A stretch of 5,685 nucleotides of DNA from Bacteroidales bacterium (GTDB lineage Bacteria; Bacteroidota; Bacteroidia; Bacteroidales; UBA10428). Position numbers and translations under genes: made by a program. The notes under the pieces are model-generated. The model worked only from the letters and a program-made list of their open reading frames with translations. It did no database searches and was not told the origin of the DNA. Below, piece by piece: positions 43-5,555 of this stretch (position 1 is its first letter; each line of letters starts with the position of its first letter). The stretch covers positions 1 to 5,685 of the forward strand of contig JAFGOZ010000188.1 of the NCBI GenBank assembly GCA_016926235.1, in the 5' to 3' direction.

Positions 43-984
43 TTATACTCTCATATTAAATGGTACATATTTCGGGGAGCATTCCACAATATGCGGCATC
101 CAGCAATTTCTTGTACATTTACAAACTTTGTCTCGTACCTGCATAGCCTGCTTGCTATTCCATATATTATCGAAATCAGATTCCTTCAAGTCGCCCATAA
201 TCCACGGCTCCTGAGAACCATTACAAGCCAAAACCTTTCCGTAAGGATCCAGAAAGAAGCTATCATTTGCTACGCCGCAATCGAAAGGGCGGCTCTCACC
301 TGACAGGTTATTTAACATCCCATAATTAAGATAAGCCCTGAACCAGTCTTTGATTCTTAATTTAAGATTCTTCCTTTTCGAGCTAAGCATTGCTTTTATT
401 AAATTATCAATCTCTTTTATGACGTCCTCAATGTTCTCTGGGGTATTGTCGTATTTACAGAAATAGAAGGAGTTATGTTTAATAGTCGTAACGAATTCCA
501 AATCCCTGCTTACCGATAAATAATATAAATCCAGCAGGTCATTAAGATTGCTGTTTGACACTACCGTTGAAAATCCAACATCTTTGACACCAAGTTCCTT
601 TAGTCTTAATGCACTTGTTAAGGCATGGTCAAAGCCGTCCTCTATCCCACGGATTTTGTCATTAACTTCGGCCAGGCCGTCGAGGCTGATTCTTACCATT
701 ATCTCGGGGAATTTCTTTGCAATATTAATGATCTTGTCTGTGTAATAGCCGTTGGTTATTATTAATACCTTTGAAGTTTTCTTATATGCAGCAGCAATGA
801 TATCTTCGATATCTTCTCTCATCATCGGCTCACCACCGGTAATTTTCAACTGTCGCAGTCCTGCAGGCAGCTTATCGATTATTTCAGGAGTAATTTCATC
901 TTCGACATGACTTGGATTTTGCCAGATATTACACATTTGGCAATGTGCATTGCATCGATATGTTGTAATTACAGAGCATTCCAT
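43..984 (-). CDS. Radical SAM protein with C-terminal SPASM/twitch-like cysteine cluster
   Basis: Complete 313-residue cytoplasmic enzyme of the radical SAM superfamily. The N-terminal core shows the CX3CX2C cluster motif (Cys11, Cys15, Cys18, within TYRCNAHCQMCNIW), which binds the 4Fe-4S cluster that cleaves S-adenosylmethionine. It also shows the TGGEP motif at 49-53, ITNG at 76-79 and SLDG at 100-103. The C-terminal part has Cys236-x12-Gly249-x4-Cys254, then Cys288-x-Cys290-x3-Cys294 and Cys302. This resembles a SPASM/twitch auxiliary-cluster domain, but the last cysteines are spaced more tightly than the classical CX2CX5CX3C. SPASM enzymes often modify peptides or sugars; no precursor peptide or sugar-pathway gene is visible here, so the substrate is unknown. 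The ATG at 984 is fixed by an in-frame stop at 1002-1000 just upstream. No Shine-Dalgarno precedes it. The superfamily call is firm; the exact role is not. Confidence 0.9.
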   Translation of the reverse strand: MECSVITTYRCNAHCQMCNIWQNPSHVEDEITPEIIDKLPAGLRQLKITGGEPMMREDIEDIIAAAYKKTSKVLIITNGYYTDKIINIAKKFPEIMVRISLDGLAEVNDKIRGIEDGFDHALTSALRLKELGVKDVGFSTVVSNSNLNDLLDLYYLSVSRDLEFVTTIKHNSFYFCKYDNTPENIEDVIKEIDNLIKAMLSSKRKNLKLRIKDWFRAYLNYGMLNNLSGESRPFDCGVANDSFFLDPYGKVLACNGSQEPWIMGDLKESDFDNIWNSKQAMQVRDKVCKCTRNCWMPHIVECSPKYVPFNMRV

Positions 985-1784: not shown

Positions 1785-1814
1785 AAAGGATATTGATAAT
1801 GGAATATAATAATG
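1785..1814 (+). promoter_or_regulatory. Translation start region of the STAND gene, with competing ATGs
   Basis: The ATG at 1812-1814 is the first start after the in-frame stop TAA at 1797-1799, so the protein cannot begin further upstream. It has only a weak GGA (1801-1803) eight bases before it. A better ribosome-site match, AAAGGA (1785-1790), is instead ideally spaced for an ATG at 1799-1801 in another frame, which would give a 14-residue peptide overlapping the gene start. Initiation at 1812 may thus be inefficient or coupled to upstream translation. Confidence 0.35.
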
Positions 1815-4800
1815 ACGACTGCTCAAGCAATAGAAAATATTAAAGATGCAGGTATGTTTGAAATTCTTGCAACTCGTGTACTTAGAATTATTGATAAAGA
1901 CTGCCAACAAATAGAACACCTTGGTGTTAATGCAGATGGAAAAACAAGAGGAAATCCAATTGACTGCTTTTGTCAGGTTCCTGAAACTAATCCCCCACGA
2001 TTTGTTATAGCAGAATTTAATACAGAAGATAATAAAACCTTAAAAGCTAAATGGCTACGTAACAATGATAATTCTAAAGATGGTGATTTAATTAAGGCAA
2101 GTCGTAGAGCAAAAGAGATTCTTAAAACAAATCCACAAGCAACATTTATAGTTTATTTATGTACTAATAAACAACCTAACGACAGACTAATAACAGAAGT
2201 TATTAATAAAGGAAATGATCTTGGCTTGGAAGTAAAATTTCTAACACAATCAAAACTTAGAGACTTTCTTGATGTTAATCCTGATGGACAATGGTTACGC
2301 AAAGAACATTTAGGGATTAATGCAGATAGAGTATCATTGCCTTTATTGCAAGAACTGTCTGAGAAAAGTAAACAACAATATGAAAAAGAATTTTTAATAA
2401 CTCACCCAGACAATTTTATCTCCACTTCTTCTGAACGAGATATAATAAGCCAACTTAAATCATCTCAGTCACTTTATGTTGTCACAGGACCATCTGGTTC
2501 TGGCAAAAGCGTATCATGTTTTCAGGTATTAAATAATCATTTAAAAAATGGTGGAATTGGCTTATGGATACCTGGAGATATAGCTGTAAAATCAAATTCA
2601 ATCGAAGAAGCAATAAATTATACTTTGAAATCTCTTTATCCCACTATTGAATCAAAGGCTGCTGAAGCGACACTACGTATTTGTGATTCTTCAATACGCT
2701 TAATTATTATTATCGATGACATTAATAAGAATGCGACTCCACATGAAATACTTAAAAAAATAGCGACATGGGCTCAGCCATCTACGAATAAAGATAAAGA
2801 AACTGGAAATAAATATTTTTCACCTTATAAGGTTATAGTACCTGCTTGGGATATTTACTGGACACCACATGATACTCAATTCCGATCAGTTGAATGGCTA
2901 TTGAGAATTCCAATTAAAAAGATGAATGATTTTGAGGCTATAGAATGCTTATCTACTGCACTTGGGTCCAAGGCATTTAATTTTACAAAAGCTGAGACTC
3001 GAAAAATAGTAAAAGAATTAGAATATGATCCAATATTAATAGCACTATATTCTATTTTAACAAAAGATAGTAATGAGTACGAACAGCAAATATCACCTCA
3101 TAATGTTATAAATCGTTTCGTAACGGATGCAGAAGCCGAATTAGCTCAATCATCAGACCATCTCCAGGGAGAATACGATCAGGTTTTATTGCTATTAGCT
3201 GAAAGCATTCTTAAACAACGAGACCTCTTTCCACAATGGCATAATGTGCAAAAATGGATTCCAAATGATAAATTACAAGCATTAAGAGAATTAGTTAAAG
3301 TTGAAAAAATCTGTCGCTTAAAAAAGATGAGTGATGATGGACATTTCGAGTTTCGACATGACCGTATCCTTGAGCATTTTCTTGTACGTGCAATAAAACC
3401 GATGTTAGATGATGCAGAGACTAATGCTGAAGTACTTTCTGATCCATTTTATGCTTCATTTGTTGGGCATGCTGTTGCCATAAGTCAACCGTCAGATAAA
3501 TTACTACAATGGCTTCGACAGTATGCACCACTTGCAATTATTTCAGCTATTCATTTTCTGGCTAATACTCCTGAATATTACAAAGATCGCATTGTTATAA
3601 CAGCAAAAACATGGTTAGAGTTAGCATCTAAAGATATAAATACTCCTTCTTCTTTACTTTTTGCTGCATTTAGAGTTCTTGAAAATACTGACTCGACTTA
3701 TGTTCTTGATATTACACAACCTCTTGCAATGAGTCGTAAAGTTGCCTTAGCAAGATTAGCGAATGGAGATGCTGCGGCTGGAGCAATAGAATTTTCTGAT
3801 ACACAATGGTTTTCTCCAGCAACAACCGATTACAGATTGGATGAAATATTAAATCGCGCTCTTTGTCGGCACAAACAGCAACTTATTAATGATTGTAAGG
3901 CTATTCTTCAAAATTCACAGATTAAAGAAGCCGATGTCCGTGGTACTCTTGTATTGGCAGGCTTCATTGCTGAAAATTCATTGGCATCATCTATTCAAAT
4001 AGCATGGAATACGATGAATAATAAAAAGAGTATTTTACTGTATGCTTTATGGGCTGGTTTACGTTGTTATGATAAAGAAAACGGTATTATTGATAATATG
4101 TTTACTGTTTTTGCAGACCTTCCTGATAATGATATGGAAGGGAAATTATCAGAGCAAATGTATATTGCGCAGGAACTTAAATTTGCTATTCAAAAAGGAA
4201 TATCTCAACAAGCATTAAATTATTTGGTAACAAAAGCAAAAACTGATAGGTCTTTACGATGGCCAATTACCTTCATGTTGGAACATGTTGACAGTCCAGT
4301 AGTATTAAAGTTCCTAATTGAAGAAGCGGCAGATTCAGATCGACGATTAAAAGGAACAAATAAAATATCCCCATGGAAAATAACTTTTCTAAGCTATTGG
4401 GATCCTACAGTCAAATCTCAAGGTAAAAGACTTTCCCAAGAATCAGTACTAACAATTAAATCTCTTTGGGAATCAGAAACATCTGATTACCAACTAAGTA
4501 AAACAGCATTCCAGTTTTGGTTGAGAACTGTTGACGATTTAGCAACGCTCAAGTCAATACCTAATAACCATCCACAATACGAAAGTGTGATATGGCGTCG
4601 AGCAACATTGGGAGACCTTTCAGTAACAACTTTGGTTAAATCACTTGCTAAATCTGATGATAAATGGTTTCATGTAATAAGTAATATATGGTCTGAAGAA
4701 TTCGTTGATTTAATAGACACTGCTCTTCTTAAACTCAAAGATAATACACCAACTGATTATACTGATGGTAGGAGTAATGAACATTATGCCTTGGCGCATT

Positions 4801-5555
4801 TATTACGTGATATACCAATAAAAGATGCTCAACCATTACTCGAAAAACACTGGGAGCATTTAAAATTCAGTCGACTATTTATTCATGTTGCACTTTATGT
4901 TGGTACCCCAAAATGTATTTCTCTGGTTGATGAGTCAATAAATAATTATCCAAGCAATATCGATCCATTAGAATATATTGGTTCCTTCTTTGGATTTTTT
5001 GAGTCAGGATTAAGTGATCGTATAAATATGCAACATCTAAAAGTACTATTACCATATATCGAAAGACTGGGTAGTAATACCCTGTCTAATATGGTAGAAT
5101 TCTGTGAACGTCATAATAAAAATGACTGGAGTATTGAGTATTTAAAACCGGAATTTGAAAGGAGAAGAGCGATATTGCCACAAGACAAAAACATTGACCA
5201 GAAGTACATTGAAAATATTACAATACGACACTTCCCCTCTAATAATGATCTTTTTCAGGAACTAGATTCAATTGAACAAAGAAGCGGATCATTTAGTGGA
5301 AGTCTTTACTATTGGTCTGAGAATTTCAAACGGCGACAAGATAGCCATAAGCGATGGAGGGAGATATTAATTGAGTGGTTTTCCTATAAGCCAACGATTG
5401 AGAGGTTCCGTTTGTATACTGCTGCAATTTCGGATCATGGGAAAAGAAGTGATATAGATATGCTAAACCATGATGTTATTGATGGTGATGTTGAGAAAAT
5501 TGAAAGATTAAGAGCAGATACTATATTTGAAATTAAAAGACGGACTCTTCAATAA
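1812..5555 (+). CDS. Large nuclease-fold/STAND NTPase protein, probable anti-phage defence (Avs-like)
   Basis: A 1247-residue, apparently intact soluble protein. Residues about 10-170 look like a PD-(D/E)XK (Mrr-like) domain: helix FEILATRVL (16-24), GVNADGKTRGNPID ending at Asp51, strand FVIAEFN (64-70) with Glu68, then a helix and TFIVYLCTN (111-119). The usual lysine two places after the glutamate is Asn70. Residues about 200-530 form a STAND/NACHT-like NTPase: Walker A GPSGSGKS (226-233), Walker B LIIIIDD (297-303), KVIVPAW (340-346) at the sensor-1 position, and FEFRHDRILEHFL (512-524) in the winged-helix region. About 530-1247 is mostly helical and HEAT/TPR-like by eye, e.g. HLLRDIPIKDAQPLL (996-1010). 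STAND defence proteins use such C-terminal regions to sense an invader, then oligomerise and activate the effector. No signal peptide or membrane segment is evident. It has its own promoter and no partner gene in view. A non-defence signalling NTPase cannot be excluded. Confidence 0.8.
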   Translation: MTTAQAIENIKDAGMFEILATRVLRIIDKDCQQIEHLGVNADGKTRGNPIDCFCQVPETNPPRFVIAEFNTEDNKTLKAKWLRNNDNSKDGDLIKASRRAKEILKTNPQATFIVYLCTNKQPNDRLITEVINKGNDLGLEVKFLTQSKLRDFLDVNPDGQWLRKEHLGINADRVSLPLLQELSEKSKQQYEKEFLITHPDNFISTSSERDIISQLKSSQSLYVVTGPSGSGKSVSCFQVLNNHLKNGGIGLWIPGDIAVKSNSIEEAINYTLKSLYPTIESKAAEATLRICDSSIRLIIIIDDINKNATPHEILKKIATWAQPSTNKDKETGNKYFSPYKVIVPAWDIYWTPHDTQFRSVEWLLRIPIKKMNDFEAIECLSTALGSKAFNFTKAETRKIVKELEYDPILIALYSILTKDSNEYEQQISPHNVINRFVTDAEAELAQSSDHLQGEYDQVLLLLAESILKQRDLFPQWHNVQKWIPNDKLQALRELVKVEKICRLKKMSDDGHFEFRHDRILEHFLVRAIKPMLDDAETNAEVLSDPFYASFVGHAVAISQPSDKLLQWLRQYAPLAIISAIHFLANTPEYYKDRIVITAKTWLELASKDINTPSSLLFAAFRVLENTDSTYVLDITQPLAMSRKVALARLANGDAAAGAIEFSDTQWFSPATTDYRLDEILNRALCRHKQQLINDCKAILQNSQIKEADVRGTLVLAGFIAENSLASSIQIAWNTMNNKKSILLYALWAGLRCYDKENGIIDNMFTVFADLPDNDMEGKLSEQMYIAQELKFAIQKGISQQALNYLVTKAKTDRSLRWPITFMLEHVDSPVVLKFLIEEAADSDRRLKGTNKISPWKITFLSYWDPTVKSQGKRLSQESVLTIKSLWESETSDYQLSKTAFQFWLRTVDDLATLKSIPNNHPQYESVIWRRATLGDLSVTTLVKSLAKSDDKWFHVISNIWSEEFVDLIDTALLKLKDNTPTDYTDGRSNEHYALAHLLRDIPIKDAQPLLEKHWEHLKFSRLFIHVALYVGTPKCISLVDESINNYPSNIDPLEYIGSFFGFFESGLSDRINMQHLKVLLPYIERLGSNTLSNMVEFCERHNKNDWSIEYLKPEFERRRAILPQDKNIDQKYIENITIRHFPSNNDLFQELDSIEQRSGSFSGSLYYWSENFKRRQDSHKRWREILIEWFSYKPTIERFRLYTAAISDHGKRSDIDMLNHDVIDGDVEKIERLRADTIFEIKRRTLQ

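Follow-up and report, generated by a model that had tools for sequence, protein, structure and literature searches.

The 5,685-nucleotide stretch of DNA analyzed here (the window) contains a long gene whose product we consider, with slightly better than even confidence, to be a self-contained intracellular STAND-type immune sensor with a variant nuclease or a novel enzymatic effector at its N-terminus. A defense role is suggested by genomic context. The protein has a three-part plan with intact NTPase motifs and conserved charged residues in its N-terminal domain (N-domain); its family is spread sporadically across bacteria and archaea, has no recurrent partner gene, and lies beside defense genes at several loci. 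In the mechanism that we propose, the C-terminal part of ~700 residues would recognize a viral or other foreign component, and the central NTPase would bind ATP and probably oligomerize. The N-domain, which may be an enzyme of the restriction-endonuclease fold whose active site is rearranged (E17, D51, and K80, with D92/K95), would then be switched on and end the infection, most likely through degradation of nucleic acid. The features of the gene are as follows.

1812..5555, + strand: whole gene, a single open reading frame of 1247 aa (frame analysis)
1812..2381, + strand: effector-type N-domain, residues 1–190 (alignment, entropy)
1860..1862, + strand: E17, invariant in 134/134 full-length proteins
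1962..1964, + strand: D51, invariant in 134/134 full-length proteins
2013..2021, + strand: residues 68–70, EFN in the window; commonest residues A, F, and T among 134 full-length proteins
2049..2051, + strand: K80, present in 133/134 full-length proteins, candidate displaced catalytic lysine
2085..2096, + strand: D92-L-I-K95, with D92 in 134/134 and K95 in 133/134 full-length proteins
2487..2510, + strand: Walker A, GPSGSGKS, residues 226–233 (sequence and 93-sequence alignment)
2700..2720, + strand: Walker B, LIIIIDD, residues 297–303 (sequence and 93-sequence alignment)
3351..3365, + strand: FRHDR, residues 514–518, end of the NTPase module (sequence and 93-sequence alignment)
3447..5552, + strand: putative sensor, residues 546–1247, matching no known domain (domain scan, alignment)

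The uninterrupted frame reported in the first-pass annotation was borne out: at the base composition of the stretch, the probability that 1812–5555 would stay open by chance is ~3e-44, and each of the five other frames contains 46–167 stops. A scan of the window for RNA genes, tRNAs, and terminators found none. The gene had also been called an orphan; the protein collection contains at least 134 full-length members of its family (≥1150 aa, window protein counted), and the family is coherent. Counting the query each time, the whole window protein retrieved 105 family proteins, the N-domain 103, and the C-terminal region 45, of which 36 were long. The family is undescribed and unnamed, and the window protein reaches the cut-off of no model in Pfam, NCBIfam, or PADLOC.

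Within the protein, the N-domain is conserved most strongly, with a mean entropy of 1.57 bits versus 2.10–2.39 bits in the other domains and 2.71 bits in the linker, and a median identity to the window protein of 54% versus 31–32% elsewhere. It was described in the first pass as PD-(D/E)XK-like, a pattern in which an aspartate is followed by (D/E)xK. D51 is present in 134/134 proteins, but residues 68–70, probably the position where (D/E)xK would fall, do not carry it. Position 68 is A in 94 proteins, Q in 17, H in 6, E in 6, G in 4, S in 2, and another residue in 5; position 70 is T in 110, S in 16, A in 6, and N in 2, and K in 0/134. Furthermore, Pfam detected no nuclease in the window protein, no nuclease family was among the 25 of 27 Pfam families listed for 31 members, and the N-domain profile matched nothing meaningful, and no nuclease, among solved structures. 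The nuclease reading of the N-domain is thus half right at best.

These observations lend weight to a rather unlikely alternative, in which the protein is STAND-like and immune and the N-domain acts as a novel enzyme other than a nuclease, or as a ligand-handling domain (for example, one acting on a nucleotide), related to restriction endonucleases distantly or not at all. In addition to the missing (D/E)xK and the absence of nuclease matches, it is favored by a different near-invariant set of residues (E17, N40, D51, K80, D92, K95, N119, D154, and R163). The Mrr-type domain (PF04471) shows a very weak profile similarity to the N-domain that is colinear in one alignment, with an hhalign probability of 4–5% and an unstable alignment (116 columns versus 18). 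The hhalign score of 21.2 for the N-domain against Mrr is no better than the 21.0 obtained against its own reversed copy. Unlike Mrr, the N-domain has no (E/Q)xK strand, and Mrr_cat (PF04471) gave no Pfam match in the window and was absent among the 25 of 27 families listed for the 31 members. Against this alternative, the order of elements appears Mrr-like by eye, with a conserved glutamate in helix one followed by an aspartate, a stretch rich in T/S, and, further on, x-x-T-N. Moreover, at two loci (L013 and L023) the profile match begins near position 190 and the N-domain is divergent, apparently related, and reads GTPD...LQIS, which looks more like a restriction endonuclease.

STAND defense proteins are known to swap effectors. 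For this family we rejected effector swapping, because the same N-domain is present in 134/134 proteins of ≥1150 aa; the whole-protein and N-domain queries are biased toward carriers of the N-domain, but all 36 long proteins found with the C-terminal query carry it too. It is lacking in 9 of 28 shorter proteins, which may be fragments, and a search of 146 genomes from the cyanobacterial phylum found no stand-alone N-domain. Because the effector–sensor pairing is fixed, a functional test with the single gene would be simple. We propose tentatively, and at well below even confidence, that the N-domain represents a new class of effector enzyme in immunity, of restriction-endonuclease-like or unrelated fold, with a displaced site (E17/D51/K80/D92/K95), permanently tied to one STAND-like sensor family.

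The NTPase motifs named in the first pass (Walker A at 226–233, Walker B at 297–303, and FRHD at 514–517) are all in place and conserved in the 93-sequence alignment: G229, G231, and K232 are each present in 93/93 sequences, D303 of Walker B in 92/93, and H516, D517, and R518 in 93/93. The window protein therefore has the Walker A and the hydrophobic Walker B ending in DD expected of STAND NTPases. The near-invariant FRHDR, which we take to be a winged-helix-like motif by analogy with STAND proteins, is followed by ~700 aa, a layout that may correspond to a winged helix plus sensor.

No Pfam STAND model reached its cut-off in the window protein (nSTAND_NTPase5, 18.5/34 bits; nSTAND3, 15/27.2 bits) or in eight chosen homologues (best, nSTAND_NTPase5 at 27.1/34 bits and NACHT at 25.0/26.7 bits in P0127); among these eight, only the generic AAA_22 cleared its cut-off, in P0063. 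At E ≤ 0.1, the 31 members matched AAA_16 (26/31), AAA_22 (20/31), nSTAND_NTPase5 (17/31), nSTAND3 (8/31), NACHT (3/31), and NB-ARC (3/31). The best-matching named STAND module, nSTAND_NTPase5 (PF25199), reached 4.2e-6 in P0050, stayed below its 34-bit cut-off in the window protein and the scanned homologues, and spans the P-loop part only (window, 211–268; P0050, 226–337). In the protein collection, whose domain labels derive from another Pfam version, nSTAND_NTPase5 is attached to 5/105 proteins and NACHT to 1/103. NCBIfam gave nothing for the window protein but sub-threshold pilus/secretion ATPases at the P-loop, and the full-protein profile gave P-loop-level or chance matches only among solved structures. 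Because no curated STAND, NACHT, or NB-ARC model is reached at cut-off, “STAND-like” is a safer word than STAND. In the C-terminal region, W732, W747, W903, and W960 are conserved, profile self-comparison revealed no convincing internal repeats in residues 545–1247, and HEAT_2 was touched by 1/31 members (E 0.031).

We rejected membership of a catalogued system, as the 2023 PADLOC models matched nothing in the window protein and NCBIfam was sub-threshold at the P-loop. bNACHT25 and bNACHT32, of bacterial NACHT clade 6, are each one large protein with an N-terminal PD-(D/E)XK DNase (essential D48), a central STAND NTPase, and a C-terminal helical domain (PMC12169576). The window protein is likewise a large single protein with an N-terminal domain, a central NTPase, a long C-terminus, and a conserved Asp; it differs in that NACHT is below the Pfam cut-off here (25.0/26.7 bits, P0127), the N-domain has no (D/E)xK, and the window's C-terminal part matches no named domain. 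Avs/AVAST STAND proteins such as Avs5 have an N-terminal effector, a central STAND NTPase, and a long C-terminal sensor (PMC12931631). The window protein shares this plan; it differs from Avs5 in that it has no Sir2 effector and no PADLOC match, and the Avs5 module nSTAND3 is below cut-off in the window (15/27.2 bits; 8/31 members at E ≤ 0.1). Avs was absent among the seven weak PADLOC families of the 31 members, even though an Avs model, Avs4, is present in PADLOC and was weakly matched by another STAND protein. What survives of the first-pass annotation is a single-gene, STAND-like tripartite protein of an uncharacterized family, with no fixed partner and with some members in defense islands; neither a canonical nuclease nor Avs/AVAST membership is supported.

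Some family members are inside clear defense islands. In Gilvimarinus, KwaB precedes the homologue by ~50 bp, and AbiEi, AbiEii, and a type I MTase follow it (L012); two Aliarcobacter plasmids both have Shedu within 6 kb, with Lit in one and TIR in the other; and on a Sphingomonas plasmid an AbiEii/AbiGii gene lies 0.3 kb downstream of the homologue. Mrr_cat, AbiEii, or N6_Mtase occurred within 10 kb in 5/21 genomes versus 0.32 expected. However, the radical-SAM control was also enriched, at 4 loci among the 150 of 501 matches listed versus 0.54 expected for those 150 (P 0.0024), and the defense markers showed no significant excess over it (conditional P 0.21). PADLOC families numbered 37 + 35 in the neighborhoods and 16 + 75 in the control stretches, so the raw family count showed no excess. 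A general enrichment of homologues near defense genes is therefore not separable from the control. The comparable enrichment of the control, together with the Mrr score no better than that of the reversed copy, weakened our main reading and raised its rivals.

All-against-all BLAST of 244 neighbor proteins yielded no family at ≥3 loci; the set combined 207 ORFs (≥150 aa, within 8 kb) from 22 loci with 36 selected plasmid genes and the window's neighbor. We thus rejected a partner gene, and the earlier statement that no partner gene exists holds at BLAST sensitivity. This result also bears on a second, unlikely alternative: that the protein belongs to mobile elements as a STAND-like regulator or a toxin-like factor, serving maintenance or inter-element competition and not antiphage defense. 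Consistent with it are the plasmid-borne copies, an integrase 0.7 kb from the homologue in Haloquadratum, toxin–antitoxin genes adjoining the homologue in Pseudanabaena and Acinetobacter, and integrases within 10 kb at ≥5/21 loci among the matches listed (one at 9,977 bp) versus 0.95 expected for the full set. The lack of a recurrent antitoxin-like partner and the co-located Kiwa, AbiE, type I MTase, Shedu, and Lit genes argue against it; because mobile elements carry defense genes too, it overlaps with our main reading. A STAND or AAA protein of cell physiology, with no role in conflict, is very improbable: the only visible neighbor in the window is a radical-SAM/SPASM gene, and radical-SAM genes are over-represented near homologues too, but 29 further loci contain no relative of the window's radical-SAM protein (best E 3.1), the family spans both domains with no recurrent neighbor, and long matches occur in just 0.4–2% of the sampled genomes per phylum in five phyla.

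If the immune-sensor reading is correct, a widespread unnamed family of bacteria and archaea, missed by the 2023 PADLOC models, joins the bacterial NLR-like sensors, with an effector active site outside the textbook nuclease pattern. Members occur patchily in seven phyla of bacteria and two groups of archaea, and some copies are on plasmids (7 of 72,556 plasmid records). At E ≤ 0.001, 31 of 1648 genomes were matched; after 15 P-loop-only matches were removed, 16 genomes in five phyla were kept, including five search-center genomes and one already found (G011). Searches of viral contigs (two) and of phage records (one) found no viral copy, and a viral origin was rejected. A Thermoplasmata archaeon grouped with cyanobacteria, away from Halobacteria, which we take as support for horizontal spread across domains.

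The ORF at 1812–5555 (+) is intact, comprising 1247 codons with 34% GC, and its length is far beyond chance. The positions that the first-pass annotation gave for Walker A (residues 226–233), Walker B (297–303), and FRHD (514–517) were borne out in the translated ORF. The sole other substantial gene in the window encodes a radical-SAM/SPASM protein and is separated from the ORF by 827 bp without a long ORF; no RNA families, tRNAs, or terminators were found in the window. The features are as follows:

43–984, minus strand: radical-SAM/SPASM gene, complete (Radical_SAM, E = 2.9e-16; SPASM, E = 2.5e-9)
1431–1460 and 1527–1556, intergenic stretch: a 30-nt sequence built on CGCAGAT, present twice (87% alike)
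1812–5555, plus strand: gene under study

The radical-SAM protein could not be placed in any specific NCBIfam family (TIGR03961 came closest, at 85 of 306 bits), and none of the 29 other homologue loci contained a relative of it (best E = 3.1).

The family was collected with three queries, each included in its own count: the whole window protein (105 proteins), the N-domain of the homologue P0042 (residues 1–185; 103 proteins), and the C-terminal part (545–1247; 45 proteins). Scoring in the whole-protein and C-terminal searches was confined to the 7,992 candidates with the most shared words. Pooling gave 162 distinct proteins, 134 of which were ≥ 1150 aa; the N-domain was present in all 134 of these and absent from 9 of the 28 shorter ones. 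One member, P0104, is named “energy-coupling factor transporter ATP-binding protein EcfA2” by one source, probably a misannotation based on the P-loop.

According to record titles, 13 loci belong to Acidobacteria, Planctomycetota, Cyanobacteria (with Melainabacteria), Armatimonadetes, Myxococcota, Pseudomonadota, and one Thermoplasmata archaeon. Plasmid homologues occurred in 7 of 72,556 records (Pseudanabaena, Haloquadratum, Halalkalicoccus, Aliarcobacter, Sphingomonas, and Acinetobacter), and there were no matches in 50,697 phage records or in the viral contigs scanned. In samples of five phyla, a long match was found in at least 3 of 386, 3 of 398, 5 of 392, 1 of 277, and 4 of 195 genomes, which are lower bounds because the matches listed show just two or three scored candidates for almost every genome. 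Each count takes in the genome used as the centre, and the first also the previously found genome G011; 15 further genomes with a P-loop-only match were left out, and the homologue in one sampled genome (G579) is interrupted by the contig end. In a quick tree, flagged for long branches and uneven composition, the Thermoplasmata protein clustered with cyanobacteria, apart from Halobacteria. This sporadic distribution, with plasmid copies and a cross-domain grouping, matches that of a mobile accessory gene.

The N-domain is the best-conserved part of the protein. Across 93 sequences, its mean column entropy was 1.57 bits, compared with 2.10 in the NTPase core and 2.29–2.39 in the remaining domains, and its median identity to the window protein was 54%, against 31–32% elsewhere. 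E17, G38, N40, D51, D92, G159, and R163 were invariant in 134 of 134 sequences, and K80 and K95 were each present in 133, a pattern suggestive of a constrained active site rather than a decayed domain. The PD-(D/E)XK-like N-terminus proposed in the first-pass annotation was not confirmed as such, as the pair that would define these nucleases is lacking: among the 134 sequences, position 68 holds A in 94, Q in 17, H in 6, and E in 6, while T, S, A, or N, but never K, occupies position 70 (window residues 68–70, E-F-N). A ten-row Mrr profile, in which one gene is represented twice, was compared with the N-domain by hhalign and gave a colinear alignment of 116 columns (probability 4.4%, score 21.2, P = 0.009; P = 0.31 for reversed Mrr). 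This alignment carries little evidential weight because the N-domain scored 21.0 (P = 0.018) against its own reversed copy. With the insert columns removed, the Mrr score was 21.4 over 18 columns, a value reached by none of 150 column shuffles, which is an easy null. A restriction-endonuclease-like fold is possible, based mainly on the layout judged by eye.

Two genomes from the cyanobacterial phylum sample encode a divergent N-domain variant, GTPD...LQIS (L013:9440–9964 and L023:4156–4692 (-)), joined to the same NTPase and C-terminal part. The variant gave 122 columns with a score of 27.5 (P = 0.001, 0 of 150 shuffles), better than the Mrr profile, and looks more restriction-endonuclease-like than the main family.

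In the NTPase, G229, G231, and K232 were invariant and D303 nearly so. Among 31 members, Pfam matches at E ≤ 0.1 were to AAA_16 (26), AAA_22 (20), nSTAND_NTPase5 (17), nSTAND3 (8), NB-ARC (3), and NACHT (3). No STAND model passed the cut-off in the window protein or in the eight homologues scanned, six of which had been chosen because the protein collection labels them STAND. The resemblance is consistent but under formal thresholds, and we therefore call the module “STAND-like.”

The proposal of a single-gene defence system was also examined through genomic context. The clearest case comes from Gilvimarinus xylanilyticus, in which defence genes are densely packed and about 50 bp separate KwaB from the start of the homologue downstream:

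L012:8954–18297: KwaB, homologue, AbiEi, AbiEii, and type I methyltransferase in a row

KwaA had one match over the neighbour set as a whole, not tied to a particular locus. Both Aliarcobacter plasmid records carry Shedu; one also has Lit, the other a TIR gene. An AbiEii/AbiGii gene lies 0.3 kb downstream of the Sphingomonas plasmid homologue. Integrases were near the homologue at ≥ 5 loci. On an Acinetobacter plasmid (L020), the genes for urea carboxylase and allophanate hydrolase flank the homologue together with a Phd/RelE toxin-antitoxin pair, an arrangement suggestive of insertion. The Nostoc and Scytonema loci (L003:13443–16517 and L005:15307–18441) have two downstream genes in common (78% and 72% identity) and no upstream genes in the neighbour-protein comparison, perhaps reflecting a common insertion site.

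Marker families were counted ≤ 10 kb from the homologue in 21 genomes (Mrr_cat in 10 of them). AbiEii was found at 2 loci (0.06 expected; 24 matches in total), N6_Mtase at 2 (0.23 expected; 70 matches), and Mrr_cat at 2 (0.03 expected; 12 matches). Pooled, these markers occurred in five genomes (G005, G008, G009, G010, and G1008) against 0.32 expected (P = 2e-5), including a partial Mrr_cat match 9.1 kb off in G005 and a weak N6_Mtase match in G1008. However, the radical-SAM genes meant as a negative control did not stay flat: among 150 of 501 matches listed, they were within 10 kb at ≥ 4 loci (G011, G199, G836, and G913) against 0.54 expected (P = 0.0024), or 1.57 over all 501 matches (P = 0.075), and the defence markers showed no significant excess over this control (conditional P = 0.21). 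PADLOC scans (E ≤ 1e-20) covered 207 neighbour ORFs at 22 loci and, as a control, 219 ORFs in 20 hand-picked stretches of 15 of the genomes. The neighbourhoods gave 37 + 35 families and the controls 16 + 75, so that by raw count the neighbourhoods were not richer. The matches listed for the neighbourhoods (25 of 37 and 25 of 35 families) include Kiwa, AbiE, JetD, SoFic, and methyltransferase models; those for the controls (25 of 75 in the larger scan) include kinase and TnpB-like models, and also ZorD, HerA, DpdE, and SIR2. Genomic context thus suggests a defence role at particular loci, without demonstrating a general enrichment.

By analogy with Avs5 (PMC12931631) and bNACHT25 (PMC12169576), we infer a scheme in which the C-terminal part would sense, the NTPase would oligomerise, and the N-domain would act as the effector. 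The nearest working model is bNACHT25, whose PD-(D/E)XK N-domain is reported to require D48 for DNA loss and protection; D51 of the family may fill this role, with K80 or K95 supplying the catalytic lysine. The family appears undescribed: no description was found in the open-licence literature searched (including PMC7159879, PMC13092281, PMC12931631, PMC12799240, PMC12169576, and PMC8195603). Restriction-endonuclease effectors in STAND-centred systems are already in print (PMC8195603; bNACHT25, PMC12169576), as are 13 validated DefensePredictor systems with PD-(D/E)XK domains (PMC13092281). A separate Myxococcota P-loop protein at L052 has an N-terminus matching LmuA (E = 2e-8), a different effector and perhaps one on another STAND module.
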